Origin: Raineyella fluvialis
Lineage (GTDB): Bacteria; Actinomycetota; Actinomycetes; Propionibacteriales; Propionibacteriaceae
Length of the DNA: 64,000 nt
Direction of reading: 5' to 3'
Assembly (NCBI RefSeq): GCF_009646095.1
Contig: NZ_CP045725.1
Coordinates: 2,108,001 to 2,172,000 of the forward strand
Shown here: positions 1 to 26,949 of the stretch, one piece after another
Numbering within the stretch: position 1 is the stretch's first letter
Layout: every line of letters starts with the position of its first letter
Program-made: the position numbers and the translations under genes
Notes under the pieces: generated by a model
The model's database searches: none
Seen by the model: the letters and a program-made list of their open reading frames with translations, nothing else
Told to the model about the DNA's origin: nothing

Positions 1-1312
1 GCAGCGCCGGTCGAGGACCGACCAGGCTCATCTCGCCGCGGAAGACATTGAAGAACTGCGGGAACTCGTCCAGTGAGAAACGACGGATGACGTGACCCAC
101 CCGGGTGATCCGCGGATCCTTCTCCATCTTGAAGAGGACACCGCCGTCGGACTCGTTCTGTGTGCGCAGCTGGGCGAGGAGCTTCTCGGCGTCCACCACC
201 ATCGAGCGGAACTTGAAGCAGCGGAAGAGCCTGCCGTCCTTGCCGACGCGGACCTGCCGGAAGAACACCGGCCCTCCGTCGTGGATCTTGATGGCCAGTG
301 CGACGGCGAGCATGATCGGGGCACTGACGACGATGAGTGCCGACGAGCCGACGATGTCGAACGCCCGCTTGCCCCAGCGCGACGCGGCCTCCGACTGTGG
401 CTGCTCTACGTGGACCAGTGGCAACCCCGCGATGGGGCGGACCTGGAGGCGTTCGGCGGAGACATCGGTCATGGCCGGGACGACGATCAGCTGGGTCCTA
501 CTGTGCTCGAGGTCCCAGGCCAGCCGTCGGAAGTCGCGGCTGCCGGGGAAGGAGCCCTCGGCGCAGATGACCGCCTCGGCCTCGACGGTCCGCACCGCCT
601 CGCCGAGCCGGTCGATGTGACCGATGACCGGGATCCCGCGGGTGGTGTGTGGGGATGGGTCGTCAGGCGGGGTGATCGCGCCGACGATCCGATAGCCCAG
701 CCAGGATTCCCGGCTGATCACGGTGGCGATCTCGTCGATGTGGGGAATGGTGCCGGAGAGGACGACGTCGCTGAGCAGCAGACCCCGTCCCCGGGCCCGC
801 TGGATGAAGCGGCGCAGCGTCAGTCGTCCGACCAGCAGCATCACGACGCCGACGGTGAACTCGAGGACGAAGAAGCCGCGGGACAGCTGACTGTGGGTGA
901 GGTAGAGCACCGCGGCCGCGAGGCCGGCGGTGATGCCGGTGGCGGTCAGGATCGACTGGTACTCCAGCGAACCGGCGCCCATGTTCTTCGTCCGGTAGAG
1001 GCCCCAGGCAGCGAGCAGGATGATCCACAACGGGACCAGCCAGACAGCCATTCCGGTCACCACGGAGGTGACGTCGGCGGCCTCGTCGAAGATCGTCAGT
1101 GAGTTGCGTCCCACGACCCCGATGCCGGTGGCGAGCAGAATGAGCACCAGATCGATCAGAAGGGCGGTCGTGCTGATCAGCCGCGAGCTTCCCCGCCCAC
1201 TGCGGATGCCCGCTGTCCGGACCGATGCGGTCGAGCGGGTGGGGGAGGGCACGCTGCCGATCACTTCGGCACCACCTCTTCCCTCAGTGCCGCTGGTTGC
1301 TTCGATGCTCAT
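1..1312 (-). CDS. Polyprenyl glycosylphosphotransferase (sugar transferase), 3' end beyond window
   Basis: This membrane enzyme would transfer a sugar-1-phosphate from a nucleotide sugar to undecaprenyl phosphate, the first committed step of polysaccharide repeat assembly. About 437 codons are visible. The N-terminal third has several hydrophobic segments (for example LLIDLVLILLATGIGVVG), followed by a CoA-binding-like region. The C-terminal bacterial sugar-transferase domain has GGPVFFRQVRVGKDG, KFRSMVVDAE, RRFSLDEFPQFFNV and GEMSLVGPRPA, which match the family well. The stop lies outside the window. The start is ATG at 1312, preceded on the minus strand by GGGGGAAC as ribosome binding site. 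It is the last visible gene of a leftward group headed by the HprK-like gene. The sugar specificity cannot be read from the sequence. Confidence 0.93.
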   Translation of the reverse strand, partial: MSIEATSGTEGRGGAEVIGSVPSPTRSTASVRTAGIRSGRGSSRLISTTALLIDLVLILLATGIGVVGRNSLTIFDEAADVTSVVTGMAVWLVPLWIILLAAWGLYRTKNMGAGSLEYQSILTATGITAGLAAAVLYLTHSQLSRGFFVLEFTVGVVMLLVGRLTLRRFIQRARGRGLLLSDVVLSGTIPHIDEIATVISRESWLGYRIVGAITPPDDPSPHTTRGIPVIGHIDRLGEAVRTVEAEAVICAEGSFPGSRDFRRLAWDLEHSRTQLIVVPAMTDVSAERLQVRPIAGLPLVHVEQPQSEAASRWGKRAFDIVGSSALIVVSAPIMLAVALAIKIHDGGPVFFRQVRVGKDGRLFRCFKFRSMVVDAEKLLAQLRTQNESDGGVLFKMEKDPRITRVGHVIRRFSLDEFPQFFNVFRGEMSLVGPRPAL

Positions 1313-1485: not shown

Positions 1486-2649
1486 TCAGCGGCCGACGAG
1501 CGCCGCGACCTCCGCGCGGAGCCTGGCGATGAAGCGCTCTTCACTGAATCCCTCGGCGTGGCGCAGGATCGCGGCGCTGTCCCAGTCCCGGCCGCGGTTC
1601 GCGCTGACCGCCGCCGAGATCTCCCAGGCGGTGGAAGCCTCGAAGAAGGCGCCGTTGACGGCGGGGTCGATCGTGTCGAGGTAGCCGCCGGCGTGGAGGG
1701 CAAGGGTCGGCCGCCCGAAGGCCGCAGCCTCCAGGGGAGTGAGGCCGAAGTCCTCGTAGGAGGGGGCGATGAGGGCGCTGGCATGGGCGTAGGCCCACCG
1801 CAGTTGAGCATCGGTGAGCCCGGACACCATCCGGGCATTGGGCGGGGCCATCGCGCGCAGGTGCCCTTCCATCGGGCCGGCTCCGACGACGACGAGCCGC
1901 TCGTCGGGCAGGGACCGGAACGCCCCCAGCGCCTTGTCCACGTTCTTGTAGGGGAGCAGCCGCGAGACGATCAGGTGGAAGCCGTCCGCCCAGTCGCGCA
2001 GCTCGGAGATCGGTTCCTGTGTCCCGCTGGCGTCGATGCTGTGCGGCGGCGGCACGAGACCCGCTGTCATGCCGTAGGTGTCCGCGACCCGGCGTGCCAC
2101 AACGCGGGAGTTGGCCAGGTAACGATCAGCCCGGTGCGCCGCCCTCCGGTCCCAGGATCGTAGGGGCCGCCCGAGGGCCGCCAGCGCGAGGCGACGCGGC
2201 GAGAACAGGCCCGCATCGCCGAGGTACTCCTCGGTCTGGTAAAGCCAGCGGGCCGGATTGTGGCAGTAGACGAGGCGCCGGCCGGTGGTCGGGAAGGCGT
2301 GCGCCCAGCCACTCGTGGAGACGATGACCACGTCGGCATCGATCCGCACGGACTCCGAGGCCCAAGCGAGCAGCGGGAGTGCACGGCGATGGTCGCGGCG
2401 GAGCAGACCGATCCTGTTGAGGGGGGAGGTCACGATCTCGGCCGAGCGGAAGTCCGGAAACGTAGCATCCGGATCGTAGAGCGTGGTGTGGATCGGGGCC
2501 CCGGGGAAGGCCCGCATCAGAGACAACATGACCCTCTCGGCGCCCCCGCGCTGGGTGAGGTAGTCGTGTGCCAGGGCGATCCGGACGCCGGACAGATCCA
2601 CGGGGGAGAGATCGAGGGTGGCCGAATCGATCGGGCCGGGCCGAGTCAT
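1486..2649 (-). CDS. Glycosyltransferase family 4
   Basis: This is a 387-aa GT-B fold retaining glycosyltransferase. The N-terminal acceptor domain opens with IALAHDYLTQRGGAERVM, typical of WbaZ/mannosyltransferase-like GT4 proteins. The C-terminal donor-binding domain carries YEDFGLTPLEAAAFGRP, the E-x7-E region. The start overlaps the stop of the upstream HprK-like gene by 4 bases (ATGA), so the two are translationally coupled. A role in building the polysaccharide repeat is inferred from context. Donor and acceptor are unknown. Confidence 0.9.
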   Translation of the reverse strand: MTRPGPIDSATLDLSPVDLSGVRIALAHDYLTQRGGAERVMLSLMRAFPGAPIHTTLYDPDATFPDFRSAEIVTSPLNRIGLLRRDHRRALPLLAWASESVRIDADVVIVSTSGWAHAFPTTGRRLVYCHNPARWLYQTEEYLGDAGLFSPRRLALAALGRPLRSWDRRAAHRADRYLANSRVVARRVADTYGMTAGLVPPPHSIDASGTQEPISELRDWADGFHLIVSRLLPYKNVDKALGAFRSLPDERLVVVGAGPMEGHLRAMAPPNARMVSGLTDAQLRWAYAHASALIAPSYEDFGLTPLEAAAFGRPTLALHAGGYLDTIDPAVNGAFFEASTAWEISAAVSANRGRDWDSAAILRHAEGFSEERFIARLRAEVAALVGR

Positions 2650-3899
2650 CGCGAGGCCACCCGCTGCAGAACCCCGGCGCCGAGGAGCGAGTCGATCACC
2701 GCGAGGGTGGCGTCGAGGAGGTTCCCCTCGGGTGGTGCGCCGAAGACCCCGGCCAAGTGGTCTGCCACGTTAGTGGGGGTTCGTAGCTGATGACAGTAGT
2801 CGACCACGGCCCTGCCGATAGCGGTGAGCCGGATCACCGTACGGTCGTACAGGACGAGCATTCCGTCGTCGACCTCCAGCGTGTCGACCGGCTCGACCAG
2901 GACGACGGCATCACGGTCGAGCTCGGAGGTCGGTGGTTGACGGATTTCGGATGGGTCGCGCTCGAGGCGTGCGTGGCGAGTGACCTCCGCGGCGTGGAGG
3001 TCATCCTCGGTCCCTGGCGCGGCGATGTCCTCTCGGGCCAAGGAGATCAGGACCGGCGCCAGAGAATCAGCCTCACGGTAGGTGCAGCGCAGGACCGGAC
3101 CGGTCCGGTTGATCAGGGCCGCGAGTAGTTGCAAGGGGCGGTCCAGGTTGCTGAGGGCGGAGGTCTCGGGGGCCAGACTGGTGATGGCCTCGGCAAGCCC
3201 GAGTTCCTCCACGATCGGGGTCCCTGCGTGTGTGTCCGTACGATCGAGCAGGACGATCCGGCGTAACCAGGGCTCCGCGGGAGCTTCCACCAGCCCCAGT
3301 GCGTCAGGGGAGGTTTCCGCTTTGGCAGCCCCTGGCTCGGTCGCCCGGATCGACAGCGGCTTCGGGTACGGCTTTATCCGTCCGTCCGGGGTGACGCCCA
3401 CGGTTTCGTCGGTCAAGTAGCCCAAGGTCTGGCCGAGGATGCGGGTCAGGGTGGTCTTCCCGGTGCCGCCAGGGGCCACGTACGCCACCGCGGCGCCCGT
3501 CTGCGGATCGGCGCAGGCGCCGGCGTGGAACATCAGCAGCCGACCGGTCTGCGCGGCGATGAAGGCATGGGTGACGGCCTGGGTTGTCTGTTGCAGGAGG
3601 GCGTCGAGTTGTGTCGCCTCGACGTGGGTACCCTCGCCGAGGCGTTCGGCATCTCCGTGTGTGGTGTCGGGGTCGGGTGTCGCCTCGTGCCGGAGCATGA
3701 CCGTGATCGGCTCGATGGTGGCGCTGACCTGCTCTGGAGCGAGACAGCGGGACCAGGCTTCTTCCAAGGCCGTCAACACGGCCGGGGCTTGCTGGCCGTG
3801 GACCTTGACCGAAAGGTTCGATGTCAGCCCGTGCAGCGTCAGCGTCAGCGGTGCCGAAGGGCGTCGACTGACGGTGCCGGAGGACGACAGGGCGGACAT
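2646..3899 (-). CDS. HprK-like P-loop protein with C-terminal PqqD-like domain
   Basis: A 417-aa protein. Residues about 142-151 form a Walker A loop (APGGTGKTTL), within a region resembling the kinase fold of HPr kinase and the HprK-related proteins of some exopolysaccharide systems. The last ~85 residues (from DAVVLVEPVDTLEVDDGMLV on) look like a PqqD winged-helix domain, a fold that binds peptides in RiPP pathways. The start is placed at ATG 3899, because a TAGGCT -10 box lies 7 nt upstream and gives a leaderless transcript; an in-frame ATG at 3926 lies upstream of that promoter. The gene is divergent from the nucleotidyltransferase and coupled to the GT4 gene downstream. The substrate is unknown, and assigning a kinase activity would be inference only. 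Confidence 0.8.
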   Translation of the reverse strand: MSALSSSGTVSRRPSAPLTLTLHGLTSNLSVKVHGQQAPAVLTALEEAWSRCLAPEQVSATIEPITVMLRHEATPDPDTTHGDAERLGEGTHVEATQLDALLQQTTQAVTHAFIAAQTGRLLMFHAGACADPQTGAAVAYVAPGGTGKTTLTRILGQTLGYLTDETVGVTPDGRIKPYPKPLSIRATEPGAAKAETSPDALGLVEAPAEPWLRRIVLLDRTDTHAGTPIVEELGLAEAITSLAPETSALSNLDRPLQLLAALINRTGPVLRCTYREADSLAPVLISLAREDIAAPGTEDDLHAAEVTRHARLERDPSEIRQPPTSELDRDAVVLVEPVDTLEVDDGMLVLYDRTVIRLTAIGRAVVDYCHQLRTPTNVADHLAGVFGAPPEGNLLDATLAVIDSLLGAGVLQRVASR

Positions 3900-3906
3900 G
3901 CTGTGC

Positions 3907-3912
3907 AGCCTA
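3907..3912 (-). promoter_or_regulatory. Leaderless promoter -10 box (TAGGCT) for HprK-like gene
   Basis: On the minus strand TAGGCT is followed by 7 nt and then ATG at 3899, the usual spacing for actinobacterial leaderless mRNAs. It nearly mirrors the plus-strand TAGGCT at 3956, making a compact divergent promoter. No clear -35 is visible. Confidence 0.65.
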
Positions 3913-3955
3913 CCCGGCGGCGGCACCGCCGATCTCGGGCGTGCCCACTGACGGA

Positions 3956-3961
3956 TAGGCT
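3956..3961 (+). promoter_or_regulatory. Leaderless promoter -10 box (TAGGCT) for nucleotidyltransferase
   Basis: TAGGCT, then 6 nt, then ATG at 3968. This predicts transcription starting at that ATG. However, the ATG at 3968 is out of frame with the nucleotidyltransferase reading frame unless one base is added in the C6 run at 3978-3983. Confidence 0.6.
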
Positions 3962-4005
3962 GCCGCTATGACCGACGCCCCCCACAGCCGCCGCTGGCGG
4001 CCGTC

Positions 4006-4845
4006 GTGCAACTCGGTCACGCCGCCGTCCAGCGCGTCGCCGACGTGTCCGGCATCGACGTCCTGCACATCAAGGGATACGCGATCGATCCGTCCCTGAC
4101 GCGGGAAGGAAGGGTTGGCACCGACGTCGATGTCCTGGTGCGGCCCGCTCAGGTGCGCGACTTCCTGCACCGGCTGCTCGAGGCCGGCTGGGAGCGTGTG
4201 ATCGGTTTCCGTGCCGGGTCGCCTTTCGGCCACGCCGCGACTCTGCACCATCCCTTCTGGGGATACGTGGACGTCCACCGGTTCTTTCCGGGAATCGGCC
4301 TCGATCCCGCAAAGGCGTTCGACATCATGTGGTCCTCGCGGCAGGTCCGGCGGATCGCCGGAGTCGACTGCGTCGTGCCCGGCCTCGTGGCTCAGACTGT
4401 GATCCTGGTGCTCAATGCCGCAAGGTCGTGGTCGTCCGGGCCGGCAAATGTCGATGTGCACGCCTCCTGGGGGTGTGCGCATGAGAACCGCCGCGCCGAA
4501 ATCCGGGCCCTGGTGGCTCGGCTCGAGGCCGACGTGGCGTTCGCGGCCGGCCTGGGGACCCTGGAAGACTTTCGCAATCGACGCGAGTATGCGCTGTGGA
4601 GGGTGATCTCCCAGGGGGGCACGCGCCTGGAGGAGTGGCGGGCTCGGATCGCTGCCGCCCCCAGCCGTCGCGAACAGCTCCGGCTCGTCCTGACCGCGCC
4701 GCTGGTCAACGTGGAACACCTCACCGTGCTGTGGGGGCGACGACCCACCCGCTGGGAGATCGTGCGGGAATTCTTCCTGCGTCCGGTCCGCGGTCTTGCC
4801 GAACAGGCGAGGGCCTTGCTCCTTGGTAGGGAGGGCAGACGATGA
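4006..4845 (+). CDS. Nucleotidyltransferase-like protein (NTP_transf_5 type)
   Basis: The open frame starts at GTG 4006 (279 aa). It resembles the uncharacterised nucleotidyltransferases found beside polysaccharide and HprK/PqqD genes. VLHIKGYAIDPSLTREGRVG leads into TDVDVLVRP, whose D40 and D42 fit the metal-binding Asp pair of the polymerase-beta nucleotidyltransferase fold. The true start is probably ATG 3968, because it sits 6 nt after a TAGGCT promoter. One added C in the run 3978-3983 would join it in frame and add MTDAPPQPPLAAV to the N terminus (292 aa). The stop overlaps the next gene by ATGA, so the two are coupled. Substrate is unknown. Confidence 0.75.
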   Translation: MQLGHAAVQRVADVSGIDVLHIKGYAIDPSLTREGRVGTDVDVLVRPAQVRDFLHRLLEAGWERVIGFRAGSPFGHAATLHHPFWGYVDVHRFFPGIGLDPAKAFDIMWSSRQVRRIAGVDCVVPGLVAQTVILVLNAARSWSSGPANVDVHASWGCAHENRRAEIRALVARLEADVAFAAGLGTLEDFRNRREYALWRVISQGGTRLEEWRARIAAAPSRREQLRLVLTAPLVNVEHLTVLWGRRPTRWEIVREFFLRPVRGLAEQARALLLGREGRR

Positions 4846-5147
4846 ATGTCGGCAGCGACGCCAAGGAGAACCCCTCTTGCGAACAACTCGGCTACCGGCT
4901 GGCTGACGGCGTGGGTGCCGTGGAGGTGGACGGAATCTTCTACGTGGCCCCAGTTCCGCAGGGACCGATCCGCATCCTGGCAGGGAGCGCGGCAGTCATC
5001 TGGCGCGAGCTGATCACCGATGGGTCTGCCGGGACACTGGCCGATCGCGTGGCCGGCAGCGTCGGGGTCGACGTCGCAGAGGTACGGGCCTCGGTGAGGA
5101 TGTTCATCGACGAACTGCTCCGTGATGGGTTGCTGACCCGGCGCTGA
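4842..5147 (+). CDS. PqqD-like small protein
   Basis: A 101-aa protein whose middle (VEVDGIFYVAPVPQGPIRIL, then a helical FIDELLRDGLL tail) fits the PqqD winged-helix family. In PQQ and other RiPP pathways this fold recognises the leader peptide; in polysaccharide loci PqqD-like partners of HprK-like proteins have no assigned role. The start ATG overlaps the nucleotidyltransferase stop. It resembles the C-terminal domain of the divergent HprK-like protein, so the two may share a ligand. No precursor-peptide ORF was recognised next to it. The gene ends 17 bp from the convergent tyrosine-kinase gene. Confidence 0.75.
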   Translation: MNVGSDAKENPSCEQLGYRLADGVGAVEVDGIFYVAPVPQGPIRILAGSAAVIWRELITDGSAGTLADRVAGSVGVDVAEVRASVRMFIDELLRDGLLTRR

Positions 5148-5164: not shown

Positions 5165-6835
5165 TCATTCGGCGAAGCGGCGTCCCCGGGAGAGGGCCGG
5201 GCTCGGCGCGTCGATGGTCTCGTCCGGGGACGAAGCTGGAGCGGGCGCCGCCAGTGGGGTCCCCTGGGTGACCGGCTCGCTCGTGATGGCAGGCATCGAG
5301 AACTGAGTGTCGTCCGGGTCCTCGGTGAACAAGGAGCTGAGTGCGGTCCGTGCCGCGCGGACGGTCTCCTCGTCCTGCTCGGTACCGGACGGGCTGCCAG
5401 GGATCGCCGCCGACGTGACCGGGACGGCCTCCTCGAGGCTGCCGTGCCGGGAGGCCACGGCCTCGCGCTTGCTCTTGTCCTTCTTGCTGCGCCCGTACGC
5501 GTAGTAGCCGCCGTACCGGCTGGCGGAGTCGTCGTTGGGCATCCGGTTGAGCGCGAACCCGGCGACCTTGGCGTCGACGGTCCTGAGCTGCTTGACCGCC
5601 TGCGCAAGGTCCCGCTTCAACGTGGTGTTGACGCTGATGACCATCAGCATGCCACCCACAAGCCGATCGATCAGAATCGGATCGATCACCGGCAGCACCG
5701 GCGGGCTGTCCACCAGCACGTAGTCGTACGCCTGGAGCAGTTCGGCGAAGAGGGTCTCCATCGCCGTGGATCCGAGGAGTTCACTGGGATTCGGAGGGAT
5801 CGCACCGGAGGGCAGGACGTGGAGACTCGAGTCGCCCCACTTCTGGGCGGCTTCAGCGACCGTGGCGCGACCCAGCAGGACCGTCGTCAGCCCGACGTTG
5901 CCCTCCAGGCCCATCGCTTTGGCGACGGACGGATTGCGCAGGTCGCCGTCCACCAGCACCACATTGGCACCCGAATCCGCGAGCGCGATGGCGAGGTTGA
6001 CCGCCGTCGTCGTCTTGCCCTCACCGGGCATCACCGACGAGATCACGAACGAGTGCTTGCCACCCGTGGTGACGTCGGCGAATTGAAGGTTGGTTCGCAG
6101 GCGCCGATATTCCTCGGCGGCGACACCGTGTGGGTCGCTGCTCATCACCGTCGGACTGGTGCCCTTGGGTAGCAGTCGCAGGGCGCCGAGGATCGGTCGG
6201 TCGGACACTGCGCGAAGATCGAGCTCTGAGCGAACTCGGGTGTCGAGGAAATGCCGGAGCAGGGCCAGGCCGATACCGAGCGCCAGACCTGCCAGCACTC
6301 CGAGCGCGATGTTCTGAAGCAGGTTGGGCGAGACCGGCTGTGACGGGACAGTCGCCGGCGTGATGGTTGTCGCCTTCACCCCTTGGCCTGCGCTGTTGAG
6401 CAGGGGAGCGAACTCCTTGCCGATCGACGCCAACTGCGGGCCCACGGCGTTCGCGGCGTCGGCCGCCACCCTTGGCGATGACGAGGTGGCCGTGATGTCG
6501 AGCATCGGGGAGCCCGTCGCCGCCTTGGCCGTGACATTCAGGGGCGTACTGGGAGCAAGCTTGAGTTGCTGCCGGAGCGGGTCCATCACCACGGGTGAGC
6601 TGACGAGCTGCTCATACGTACCGAGATCGTTGGTCGTCAGGACGTAACCGCCGCCGCCGGTGTTGGTGCCGGTCTTGGCCGTCGCTTCCGCGGAGAAGAA
6701 CACCCGGGTGGTCGCCTCGTAGGTCGGGGTGATTCGGAGCGTGGTCGCCACTGTGGCGGCCACCACCAGGAGCAGGCTGACCAGGACGGTCTTCCAGCGG
6801 GAGCCGAGGATGGCCAGGAACTCTCGGAACTGCAC
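5165..6835 (-). CDS. Polysaccharide co-polymerase / tyrosine autokinase (Wzc/CapAB-like)
   Basis: A single 556-aa protein combining a Wzz-type chain-length domain and a BY-kinase. Two membrane helices (about residues 16-33 and 175-195) flank the extracytoplasmic part. The kinase follows with Walker A SVMPGEGKTTT (about 268-276), Walker A' VVLVDGDLRNP and Walker B YVLVDSPPVLPVID. A tyrosine cluster (RYGGYYAYGR) lies before a Ser/Pro-rich tail and is the likely autophosphorylation site. GTG 6835 is preferred over an upstream ATG (6901) because GGAGAG lies just before it. It would control length and export of the polysaccharide made by this locus. It is divergent from the bifunctional glycosyltransferase. 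Confidence 0.92.
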   Translation of the reverse strand: MQFREFLAILGSRWKTVLVSLLLVVAATVATTLRITPTYEATTRVFFSAEATAKTGTNTGGGGYVLTTNDLGTYEQLVSSPVVMDPLRQQLKLAPSTPLNVTAKAATGSPMLDITATSSSPRVAADAANAVGPQLASIGKEFAPLLNSAGQGVKATTITPATVPSQPVSPNLLQNIALGVLAGLALGIGLALLRHFLDTRVRSELDLRAVSDRPILGALRLLPKGTSPTVMSSDPHGVAAEEYRRLRTNLQFADVTTGGKHSFVISSVMPGEGKTTTAVNLAIALADSGANVVLVDGDLRNPSVAKAMGLEGNVGLTTVLLGRATVAEAAQKWGDSSLHVLPSGAIPPNPSELLGSTAMETLFAELLQAYDYVLVDSPPVLPVIDPILIDRLVGGMLMVISVNTTLKRDLAQAVKQLRTVDAKVAGFALNRMPNDDSASRYGGYYAYGRSKKDKSKREAVASRHGSLEEAVPVTSAAIPGSPSGTEQDEETVRAARTALSSLFTEDPDDTQFSMPAITSEPVTQGTPLAAPAPASSPDETIDAPSPALSRGRRFAE

Positions 6836-8925: not shown

Positions 8926-10289
8926 TGGGCGCATTGATGGCGACCGTTTGGGGGCGCCGGGCGGTCTGGCTCATGGGGACGCTGATCGGGGTAGGGCTGG
9001 CGCTGGGAGCCGGTCACTTCATGCCCGGGCGGCCGGCCATCGCTCTTGGCGTCGTGGGAGTCGTGCTGGCGCTGGGGGTTACTGTCGCCGAACCCGCCAT
9101 GATCCCGCTGATGGCGATGCCGTTGTTGCTCGTGGTGAAGCGCGTCGGGGGGACCGGCCTTGACTTGTCCGTGTCCGATGCCGCGTTGGGCGTGGCCACC
9201 GTGACGGCGCTGGTGTTTGCTCCACGCCCCTTCAGCGCGACGTTCCGCAATCTGCTCTGGCTGTCGGCGATCTACCAGTTCGCCATCCTCTTCACCGTCG
9301 TGGCGAATCCGTACGCCTCCGGCGTCGTCGAGTGGGCCCACTCGTGGTTACTCGTGGCCGGAGCCTTGGTCGTCGGGTGGACTGTCGGTCGCAGCGGTCA
9401 TGCCCGGGCCGGCCTGACCCTGGTGGTGCTGACGGCTCTGTTGCTCGCACTCAGCACGATCATGCAGGGTGTAGTGCAGTACTCGCACGGAGAATTCCAC
9501 GAGGTATACACGCGGTGGCCCTACGAGATGCAGAAGAACTTTGTGGGCACGGTGCTGGCGTTCGCTGCTGTCGTCCTTTATGCCCGGCCTAGCTGGATGG
9601 GATGGCGCAAAGGGTGGAGTGTCGCAGTCTTCACGATCCTGATCGTCGCCCTCTTGATGACGCAGTCGCGCCAAGCGATCGTGGGCCTGGCTTTCGGGCT
9701 CTTGGTGATCCTCCTGCGTGGCAATGCACATCGGCGGCGGTCGAAGGCGGTCGTCCTGCTTGCCGTGCCGGCGTTGGTGTTCGTCGCTACCACCGTCCGA
9801 GACCAAGTCCGGAGCGGCAATGGCTTCAACTCAGCCAACCAGCGGATCACGTGGTTCCAGGACACAGTCGCTTACTGGATGACTTCCCCATGGGTCGGTC
9901 ACGGCTTGCGCTACTGGTACCGCCCGGGCGAACCCCGCTTCCAGCCGCCCAACGCTGAGATCGAGATGCTTGCTACTGCGGGCATCGTGGGGTTGATCGG
10001 GTTCCTGGTGCTCATCGCTGCGTGTCTTGCGTTGCTGTGGCGGATCGAACCGGAGTATGGCACACTCGCCGTCGCTGTTGTGCTCGGGAAGGTCGTTCAG
10101 GGGCAGTTCGACTTGTTCTGGTCCGCGGTTCAGGTTTCAATACCGTTCGTCATCGCGGGGATCTGTCTGGGCGCCCTCGAGCTGCACCGACAAGACGGAA
10201 CTCTCCTGTGGCTGCAGCGAGCCACTGACCTCACCGTCCCGGAACGGGTGTCCATGGCACTGCCCGATGGTGGACTGGAGGGCTCGTGA
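8922..10289 (+). CDS. O-antigen ligase / Wzy-like polymerase membrane protein
   Basis: A 455-aa protein with roughly a dozen hydrophobic helices. The large periplasmic loop and following segment (WVGHGLRYWYRPGEPRFQPP, then NAEIEMLATAGIVGLIGFL) match the Wzy_C/O-antigen ligase superfamily, where a conserved His and Arg act in chain transfer. It should polymerise repeats or ligate finished polymer to an acceptor on the outer face of the membrane. It overlaps the preceding gene by GTGA. Because an ABC exporter also lies in the locus, a ligase role is as likely as a polymerase role. Confidence 0.85.
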   Translation: MMGALMATVWGRRAVWLMGTLIGVGLALGAGHFMPGRPAIALGVVGVVLALGVTVAEPAMIPLMAMPLLLVVKRVGGTGLDLSVSDAALGVATVTALVFAPRPFSATFRNLLWLSAIYQFAILFTVVANPYASGVVEWAHSWLLVAGALVVGWTVGRSGHARAGLTLVVLTALLLALSTIMQGVVQYSHGEFHEVYTRWPYEMQKNFVGTVLAFAAVVLYARPSWMGWRKGWSVAVFTILIVALLMTQSRQAIVGLAFGLLVILLRGNAHRRRSKAVVLLAVPALVFVATTVRDQVRSGNGFNSANQRITWFQDTVAYWMTSPWVGHGLRYWYRPGEPRFQPPNAEIEMLATAGIVGLIGFLVLIAACLALLWRIEPEYGTLAVAVVLGKVVQGQFDLFWSAVQVSIPFVIAGICLGALELHRQDGTLLWLQRATDLTVPERVSMALPDGGLEGS

Positions 10290-11452
10290 CGCAGCACAAC
10301 GACGTTCCCCCGCAGATTCTCCCGCGTCGCATCGTCCAGATCGTGCCTAGTGTGGAGCCTGGCAGAGGAGTCGAAGCAGTTGCGTACCATCTCGAACAAG
10401 AATGGCAACGCCTAGGGATTGAGACGGCTCGCTTCACCTTGGTGGAAGCCCACGGACGATGGCTACCCGATCCAGGGCCGGGTGTCGTCGGCAAGATGAC
10501 CCTGGCGGCTCGCGTCTTCTGGTTCACGACAGTCGGCTCTTTTATGGCTGCGCGTTTCCTGGCGCACCAACCTCGAGGAACGGTGTCCGTCTGCCACAAC
10601 GACGTGCTGGTCGGCGACGTCTACGTGAACCATGGCATCGTCGCCGAGGCCATGAGGGCTCGGGGGCACTCTTTGTTGCGCATGGTCCGCAATCCACTTC
10701 ACCTCTTCACCTGGCTGCGCGACGCCCTCCGCTACGGTCTCGGCCTGCACCAGCGGGTCGTCAATCTCACAGGGGTGGAGGACGGGATTCTTCGCCGGAC
10801 GTATCCCCGCGTAAGGCCTCCGTCGGTCGTCATCGGCAACGGAGTGGACACCGACCGATACCAGCCCGACCCAGAGGATCGGGTCGCGTATCGCCGTCGG
10901 CTCGGTCTGGCGGAGGACGATGCCGTGGCGGTGTTTGTCGGCCATGAGTTCGGACGCAAGGGCCTCCCCGTGGTATTGCAGGCTATGGATGGCGAACCTC
11001 ACGACATACTGCATCTGGTGGTGGTCGGGGGCACCCCGGACATGATCACGCAGGCCGCTCGGGACGCCGATCTCCACGGGGTGGGACCACGAGTGCACTT
11101 CGTCGGGGAGCAGCTCGATCCACGCCCGTACCTCCACCTCAGCGACTTCATGGTGTTCCCCAGCGCGTATGAGTCCTATGGACTCGTGGTACTCGAGGCC
11201 ATGGCGTGTGGTCTGCCGGTGGTGGCGACGCGGGTGGGCTGTGTGCCGGAGGTCATCGACGACGGCGTCAACGGGATCGTCGTGGAGCCGTCGGCAGACT
11301 CCGTGAGAGAGGGCATCCGGCGAATGTTGACAGCGGACCTTTCCGGTATGGGCATCCAGGCCAGACGGGCCGCAGAGGACCATTCTTGGTCCCGCATCGC
11401 ACGAGAATATGTCGGCATGTTCGCGGCCGTCCTCAGCGAGAAGGCGCGATGA
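10286..11452 (+). CDS. Glycosyltransferase family 4 (paralogue A)
   Basis: A 388-aa GT-B glycosyltransferase. It shares an unusual N-domain block VSVCHNDVLVGDVYVNHG and the donor-domain block VFVGHEFGRKGLPVVLQAM with the protein at 23961-25088, so the two are paralogues. SYGLVVLEAMACGLPVV carries the E-x7-E region. The GTG start overlaps the upstream stop by 4 bases. Specificity is unknown. The shared HND motif is not one I can assign to a known subfamily. Confidence 0.88.
   Translation: MTQHNDVPPQILPRRIVQIVPSVEPGRGVEAVAYHLEQEWQRLGIETARFTLVEAHGRWLPDPGPGVVGKMTLAARVFWFTTVGSFMAARFLAHQPRGTVSVCHNDVLVGDVYVNHGIVAEAMRARGHSLLRMVRNPLHLFTWLRDALRYGLGLHQRVVNLTGVEDGILRRTYPRVRPPSVVIGNGVDTDRYQPDPEDRVAYRRRLGLAEDDAVAVFVGHEFGRKGLPVVLQAMDGEPHDILHLVVVGGTPDMITQAARDADLHGVGPRVHFVGEQLDPRPYLHLSDFMVFPSAYESYGLVVLEAMACGLPVVATRVGCVPEVIDDGVNGIVVEPSADSVREGIRRMLTADLSGMGIQARRAAEDHSWSRIAREYVGMFAAVLSEKAR

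Positions 11453-25217: not shown

Positions 25218-26949
<1,732 letters not shown>

Follow-up and report, generated by a model that had tools for sequence, protein, structure and literature searches.

What do an HprK-like kinase, a nucleotidyltransferase and two PqqD-type domains act upon when their genes lie side by side? This question is raised by a locus in a 64,000-nucleotide stretch of the Raineyella fluvialis genome (the window; G000:C1:2108001-2172000, G000 being the window's own genome of 3.65 Mb), which encodes a kinase K with a PqqD-type tail q, a nucleotidyltransferase N and a lone PqqD-like protein Q. A sequence-only reading of the same DNA had proposed a peptide, a carrier or a sugar-lipid as the substrate. 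That proposal was too open, and our survey points to secreted proteins of the twin-arginine translocation (Tat) type with a common N-terminal signal, here called T. On genomic grounds, the T proteins are very probably the clients of K and N. The proposal as a whole, that K, N and the PqqD domains modify a Ser of T before export and thereby provide a surface anchor, is put forward with confidence and doubt in equal measure. The HprK-PqqD/nucleotidyltransferase/PqqD module that the earlier reading had described at 2646-5147 was present, with three genes and with K and N divergently oriented. The features concerned are as follows.

2646-3899, minus strand: K-q, HprK/phosphoenolpyruvate carboxykinase (PEPCK)-fold kinase with a C-terminal PqqD-fold domain (open reading frame (ORF), HprK_rel_A match, invariant columns, AlphaFold2, Foldseek)
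about 2661-2906, minus strand: q, PqqD-fold tail of K-q (AlphaFold2 topology)
4006-4845, plus strand: N, nucleotidyltransferase-fold, NTP_transf_5-like protein with a GTG start (PF14907 homologues, AlphaFold2, Foldseek)
4842-5147, plus strand: Q, lone PqqD-like protein (PF05402, 30.0 bits; often adjoins N)
25218-25772, minus strand: T, candidate client, Tat-type secreted protein (shared signal; best T-profile match in G000, E 3.4e-16)
25620-25700, minus strand: shared signal of the window T, from RR to Ser (T profile)
25620-25622, minus strand: Ser codon ending the conserved signal, the putative acceptor (+26 from the first Arg)

The N-terminal signal of T proteins

The T signal was ungapped and 27 residues long, with the form RR-x7-W-x2-P-x8-P-A-x-A-x-S. 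All 44 profile matches from eight relatives, a set that omits the window's own T and one weak G001 match (7e-4), carried RR at 0/+1, W at +9, P at both +12 and +21, and A at +24 without gaps, and the residue at +26 was Ser in 40 and Thr in four. A larger set was collected by text pattern, which gave 118 rows; a filter dropped 23, and seven of the remaining 95, which were frame-shadow ORFs and a transporter, were removed by eye to leave 88 T proteins (the T of L132 duplicates that of L026 and was counted once). Here, Ser occupied +26 in 79 proteins, Thr in five, Gly in three and Asn in one. Three filtered-out rows (one each from L121, L149 and L199) look like true T proteins, with Ser, Ser and Thr at +26, and the spacing was shared by a further three profile matches, two from L189 and one from L203, that the text pattern had missed.

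The information content of the 88 sequences was 3.7 bits at +26, 1.2 at +27 and below 1 beyond; conservation of the signal stops at the Ser. The mature parts of the same proteins formed 55 clusters (BLAST, E 1e-5). When one protein was taken per cluster, +26 was Ser in 46 and Thr in five, and all 55 had Ser or Thr at this position or Ser one residue later. By motif, the signal is putatively of the Tat type: RR was present in 44/44 profile matches, and Ser preceded RR in 68 of the 88 proteins.

PqqD domains bind leader peptides in the pathways of ribosomally synthesized and post-translationally modified peptides (RiPPs). Together with the W and P conserved within the hydrophobic region of the T leader, this would suit a reading in which the PqqD domains act in Tat quality control, chaperoning the leader until T folds, with K and N as regulators of this step that leave no permanent mark. 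The conservation extends beyond A-x-A to the Ser, however, which is not obviously needed for leader binding, and we regard such a chaperone role as improbable.

Joint presence of K, N and T

A T profile of 34 residues (A6), built from 23 signal-bearing proteins adjoining K, was applied to three sets: 57 genomes (G000 and relatives), a 396-genome sample of the phylum, and 89 genomes of the G141 family. In the 57-genome set, K was present in nine genomes and N in eight, the ninth (G043) having a more distant NTP_transf_5 protein. T (E<=0.001) was detected in 9/9 K-positive genomes and 0/48 K-negative genomes; matches in G036 and G039 and an additional G000 match, all at E 0.004-0.01, were left out of this count. 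There were up to 14 T copies per genome, many of them distant from K and N. K and N can themselves be far apart on the chromosome, by approximately 118 kb in G001 and by 240 kb in G002, so linkage alone does not account for their occurring together.

The phylum sample contained T (E<=1e-5) in G000, G141 and G362, exactly those in which K and N both scored E<1e-40. Weak K matches (E 1e-18 to 1e-5), accounting for 25 of 28 genomes, were counted as other HprK-like or P-loop proteins, and the G307 T match (4e-4) was a transporter-like ORF. Among the 89 genomes of the G141 family, K was found in 49, T in 44 and N in 42. The threshold was E<1e-30 for K, leaving out 4 of 53 genomes (all four without T), and E<1e-30 for N, leaving out G466. 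T occurred in 44 of the 49 K-positive genomes and in none of the 40 others, and all 42 strong-N genomes carried T; the T genomes are a subset of the K genomes, and the N genomes a subset of the T genomes. Fisher tests, which treat genomes as independent and ignore relatedness, gave 4e-20 for K with T, 2e-18 for K with N, 2e-23 for N with T, and 1e-5 for N with T within the K-positive genomes.

T genes were also found close to K. A scan of named genomes gave 61 K loci, 52 of them actinobacterial (L111-L162) and including same-strain pairs such as L114/L116, L119/L147, L143/L144 and L115/L160; the genera include Propioniciclava, Phycicoccus, Knoellia, Nocardioides and Demequina. Forty-five T genes lay in 24 of these 52 loci, including all ten Demequina loci, and 39 of the 45 were within about 3 kb of K (counted by hand from positions). 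The sequence-only reading had made its module depend on co-occurrence beyond close relatives, and K, N and PqqD genes do recur in several actinobacterial families.

The same counts might be expected if T were a Tat signal peculiar to certain lineages that had spread along with the genomes, its link to K and N being passenger co-inheritance, since many of the positives come from a few families, the tests ignore relatedness and K loci supplied the training set of the T profile. Against this, the presence is patchy and agrees inside genera: K and T vary together within g30, as do K, N and T within g286, and both g38 and g304 have K-positive members without N and T next to congeners with all three, while g302 disagrees for N. 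T genes adjoining K also argue against passenger co-inheritance, which we hold to be improbable as well.

Weak K-like and N-like matches about 1-4 kb apart were seen in other Actinomycetota (G114:C33, G164:C82 and G081:C117) with no T by the A6 profile, suggesting that more distant versions may serve other clients.

Identity of K, N and Q

Most single-protein scores in the window were under the cut-offs. K matched HprK_rel_A (TIGR04352) at E 2e-4 with 20.6 bits, against a curated cut-off of 200; the K tail reached 17.3 bits with PqqD (PF05402, gathering score 23.4) and N reached 23.3 bits with NTP_transf_5 (PF14907, gathering score 31.2), while Q exceeded the PqqD gathering score. Nevertheless, the identities of K, N and Q hold on the basis of the homologue sets and AlphaFold2 models, and so do the HprK, PqqD and NTP_transf_5 assignments made in the sequence-only reading.

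HprK_rel_A was matched by 32 of 35 K homologues at E<=0.01 (best E 6.3e-13), and the ScmC model, weakly, by 10 of the 35 at the same threshold. Thirteen columns were invariant across the 35 sequences, including H125, G147, K148, T150, D164, E165, K180, P181, K193 and R220. The AlphaFold2 model of K-q (predicted local distance difference test (pLDDT) score 90.2) had a PEPCK-like kinase part, for which the 50 Foldseek matches listed were PEPCKs (best E 2.5e-6); HprK and PEPCK share one fold. A PDB sequence search with K gave mainly P-loop matches. With its P-loop, the acidic pair D164/E165 and the PEPCK-like fold, K belongs to the HPrK/PEPCK kinase superfamily. The K tail in the model runs strand-strand-strand-helix-helix-helix, which is the PqqD topology, as the earlier reading had supposed. 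The K-q reading frame is still open upstream as far as a GTG at 3926.

Nine K proteins of Demequina were 462-487 aa long. In L159, L152 and L158 (genes near 9130-10800), K carried an N-terminal domain resembling low-molecular-weight protein tyrosine phosphatase (LMW-PTP), for example VDATNTGRSAAGERLL. LMW-PTPs have a catalytic Cys motif; the usual catalytic Cys was absent by eye from the domain in these three proteins, which are possibly a pseudophosphatase fused to the kinase.

PF14907 was matched by 32 of 33 N homologues at E<=0.01 (best E 2.4e-17), and conservation extended to the catalytic-type residues K23 and G24 (KG), D40 and D42 (DxD) and a third Asp, D89. The AlphaFold2 model (pLDDT 93.1) had a nucleotidyltransferase fold, and all eight Foldseek matches at E<=0.001 were of the nucleotidyltransferase type, LnuA, ANT(2'')-Ia and MenT1 being the closest; a PDB sequence search with N gave nothing useful. 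N is a protein of nucleotidyltransferase fold with DxD and a third Asp. PsmN of the pseudomycoidin pathway is presumably a member of the same family, PF14907. PqqD was matched by 45 of 57 q/Q homologues at E<=0.01, and Q also matched lasso_PqqD_Strm (E 6e-4).

The start of Q and the end of N share 4 bases. The reading frame of N does not include the ATG at 3968, which lies beyond a run of six C, and this leaves GTG at 4006 as the N start; a close N homologue in L024 has an in-frame ATG start at 10882. The divergent NTP_transf_5 protein of G043 (381 aa) lies near two T genes and deoxythymidine diphosphate (dTDP)-sugar genes in the region L250:4658-8727 (G043:C9), on a different contig from K.

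Mature parts of T proteins

The candidate clients were roughly 100-600 aa in size. A transmembrane (TM)-like stretch at the C-terminus was found in 0/88 T proteins and LPXTG with a membrane tail in 0/88, six loose LPXTG pattern matches having no membrane segment behind them. The last residue of the 88 proteins was unconserved, and a C-terminal Ser acceptor of the lasso-kinase kind was rejected on this ground.

An NCBIfam scan of 18 T proteins identified a choice-of-anchor G domain (choice_anch_G, 113-142 bits, cut-off 45) in six, from G001, G003, G012 and G025, with no other model over its cut-off. None of the six had LPXTG, even by the loose pattern. The domain was found in 23 of 216 genomes of the class, 16 of the 23 being from one family, and G034, a choice_anch_G genome, lacked K and T. 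Thirty choice_anch_G loci were taken, three of which gave no readable ORF; of the 27 ORFs elsewhere, 20 had LPXTG near the C-terminus and none had the T signal. Five were cut before the C-terminus, and two complete ORFs were without LPXTG, one of them (L227) probably read on the wrong strand. That choice_anch_G can be accompanied by LPXTG or, alternatively, by the T signal suggests an anchoring role for the latter.

A Pfam scan of ten T proteins matched only that of L181 (G046), with RCC1-like repeats as the mature domain. In the C-terminal tail of the window T (25218-25330), alignment to the G003 relative was lost after approximately residue 123 from RR, possibly by a frame change.

Proposed modification of T before export

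We propose that K-q and N-Q form a two-enzyme cytoplasmic system that would modify otherwise unrelated Tat-exported surface proteins. From the binding of RiPP leaders by PqqD, the T leader is probably held by q and Q, which would recognize RR...W..P...P-A-x-A-x-S. K, using ATP, would phosphorylate the residue that closes the conserved leader, a Ser or in rare cases a Thr; this residue would be the second of the mature protein if cleavage follows A-x-A. N would then put a sugar or nucleotide on the Ser phosphate. Folded, modified T would leave by the Tat route, which would let the ATP-dependent modification steps precede translocation. The added group would anchor T at the surface, plausibly in exopolysaccharide (EPS) handled by the neighbouring Wzc.

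The assignment of kinase and capping steps follows the lasso peptide pseudomycoidin. According to two reviews, the HprK-like PsmK phosphorylates a Ser, and the phosphate then receives one or two hexoses from PsmN, which is nucleotidyltransferase-like (PMC8498205, PMC9266682). The sequence-only reading had stated that this nucleotidyltransferase family has no known substrate and that the chemistry of HprK/PqqD-related pairs is undescribed, and PsmK and PsmN qualify both statements. By this analogy, K may phosphorylate the Ser of T and N may cap it. We judge the modification of this Ser to be evenly poised between right and wrong. Anchoring of T in EPS is tentative and somewhat doubtful, and an N-terminal anchoring system in its most explicit form, in which the Ser is phosphorylated and glycosylated in the cytoplasm and the cleaved T is joined to EPS via a phosphosugar, is more doubtful still.

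Several observations weigh against the assignment of T as the client or against the chemistry proposed. K was found without T in five of the 49 K-positive genomes of the G141 family (G466, G481, G520, G522 and G525), four of which had no PF14907 match and one of which (G466, genus g283) had a divergent one. The 19 kb read around K-q in these genomes (L251-L254 and L257, corresponding to G481, G520, G522, G525 and G466) contained no N, Wzc or T. K can thus act without T, and it may have a second role. G454 and G523 had K and T with no N found, and genus g302 is inconsistent for N, which is missing in G523 and present in its congener G486. PF14907 proteins occurred also in G037, G040 and G055, which have neither K nor T, so PF14907 alone is not diagnostic of the module. 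No T was counted nearby in 28 of the 52 K loci, and since the T profile was trained beside K, it could overlook diverged tags in genomes that lack K. The text patterns themselves required RR, W and the first Pro; the Ser, however, lay outside the earliest pattern, whose last fixed residue was the first Pro, and was present in 31 of 35 rows, one protein being counted twice. In a control for this Ser, only three of 50 further sequences of these loci taken as signal peptides had Ser at +2, which favours the proposal, but the set is noisy and includes non-exported proteins. The fold of N resembles enzymes that transfer nucleotidyl groups by Foldseek, and the chemistry of PsmN is unsettled, with nucleotidyl transfer still possible (PMC9266682). 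Finally, nine of the ten Demequina loci had no labelled gene of a glycosyltransferase cluster, the unlabelled genes there being of unassigned identity.

Gene neighbourhoods of K

Three further genes of the window belong to the polysaccharide context.

5165-6835, minus strand: Wzc-type polysaccharide co-polymerase/tyrosine autokinase (TIGR01007, 169 bits, cut-off 108; recurrent neighbour)
2-1264, minus strand, cut by the window edge: Bac_transf/CoA_binding_3 initiating sugar transferase (context gene)
1486-2649, minus strand: GT4 glycosyltransferase (context gene)

Called genes of at least 35 aa in 53 loci (the 52 K loci and the window) were clustered, and the 45 largest clusters were examined. 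The K cluster was present in 48 loci; the corresponding figures were 42 for q, 36 for Wzc, 28 for N and 16 for LMW-PTP, whereas Q homologues formed two clusters, one covering 23 loci and the other 8. Some loci were ordered Wzc-K-q-N-Q, and compact Demequina loci such as L159 had the order Wzc-K-q-N-Q-T-T. Each enzyme in the loci read usually had its own PqqD domain, either fused or as the next ORF.

Wzc was the commonest neighbour after K and q, and with the LMW-PTP genes and the LMW-PTP-like domain seen by eye on three Demequina K it would agree with a module acting on polysaccharide assembly, whether through Wzc or the cytoplasmic tail of Wzc or through a lipid-linked sugar, the T proteins being EPS-matrix proteins that need the polymer. 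Four orthologous Wzc proteins of the window's genus (window 5165-5185; L037-L039) also keep a GRRFA[DE] end after a variable, unalignable linker. However, full-length Wzc homologues occurred in K-negative relatives as well, e.g. G008, G032, G026 and G017 (E<1e-90), and the second, N-linked Wzc copies of G001 and G003 ended in RRGI. Action on polysaccharide assembly would leave unexplained both the 27-residue leader ending at Ser that is common to 55 T clusters and the joint absence of N and T in K-positive genomes. We consider it unlikely.

The Wzc tail as the sole substrate was rejected, because among 24 Wzc ends (30 loci taken, 6 of which gave none) GRRFA[DE] appeared only in the four orthologues of the window's genus, and because the same genus has second, N-linked copies with another ending. 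The window genome has a second Wzc homologue at G000:C1:1451013-1452343, in two overlapping pieces.

A RiPP-like pathway, in which the module would tailor a small peptide in the manner of the SynChlorMet cassette or of lasso clusters with phosphorylation, was considered on the same survey. ScmC is part of the gene content of the SynChlorMet cassette, and the B1 protein of lasso clusters is a PqqD-type leader binder. The ScmC matches of K and the lasso_PqqD_Strm match of Q point in this direction, as does the presence of an HprK-like kinase, a nucleotidyltransferase and B1 together in lasso clusters (PMC8498205, PMC9266682). However, the conserved small peptide that the sequence-only reading had thought worth seeking among the neighbours did not appear. 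No small peptide was recurrent in the 45 largest clusters, and a small-peptide precursor was rejected as the client; what recurred were the Tat-type secreted proteins with their common signal. Nothing in the gene lists, in which no profile search was made, stood out as a lasso protease or cyclase, and the known lasso kinases target a C-terminal Ser, a position that T proteins do not conserve. Tailoring of a small peptide is thus very improbable, and modification of T remains the preferred reading.

Comparison with known systems

The individual parts belong to known families, and what would be new is the pairing of a kinase/nucleotidyltransferase/PqqD machine with an N-terminal tag on which it would act. 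No description of the combination of K, N, PqqD and T was found in searches of open-licence papers. If the proposal is correct, Actinomycetota would possess a tag system for surface proteins in which an N-terminal tag forms part of a Tat-type signal and the machine, made up of kinase, nucleotidyltransferase and peptide-binding domains, is soluble. It would give a substrate class to the orphan HprK-like, PqqD and NTP_transf_5 proteins of polysaccharide loci, and would connect RiPP-type chemistry with protein sorting. It would also offer a rationale for the use of Tat, since ATP and activated sugars can be drawn on only before export, and it predicts which residue is modified.

HprK_rel_A (TIGR04352), the best named match of the kinase, likewise has a PqqD-like partner and is set in EPS loci. 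Window K scored about one tenth of the curated cut-off, in contrast, and the sources found for HprK_rel_A had no T-type client. The likeness to SynChlorMet is limited to the weak ScmC matches, the rest of the cassette not having been searched for.

Lasso tailoring (paeninodin, pseudomycoidin) has, with B1, a PqqD-type leader binder in common with the present module. The reviews of lasso tailoring also describe an HprK-like kinase acting on Ser and a nucleotidyltransferase-like partner adding hexose to the phosphate. In contrast, no lasso precursor was seen here (gene lists, without a profile search), and the putative clients are exported proteins. The Ser of lasso peptides is at the C-terminus, whereas the candidate Ser of T ends an N-terminal signal.

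LPXTG/sortase also serves surface proteins, and choice_anch_G occurs with either signal, whereas LPXTG with a membrane tail was not found in any of the 88 T proteins. PEP-CTERM/exosortase (PMC1569441) similarly combines many diverse proteins, one tag, a dedicated co-occurring machine and an association with EPS. Its tag is C-terminal with a membrane helix and its machine is a membrane transpeptidase-like protein, whereas the T tag is N-terminal and Tat-like, with a C-terminal TM in 0/88 proteins, and would be acted on by a kinase, a nucleotidyltransferase and PqqD domains.

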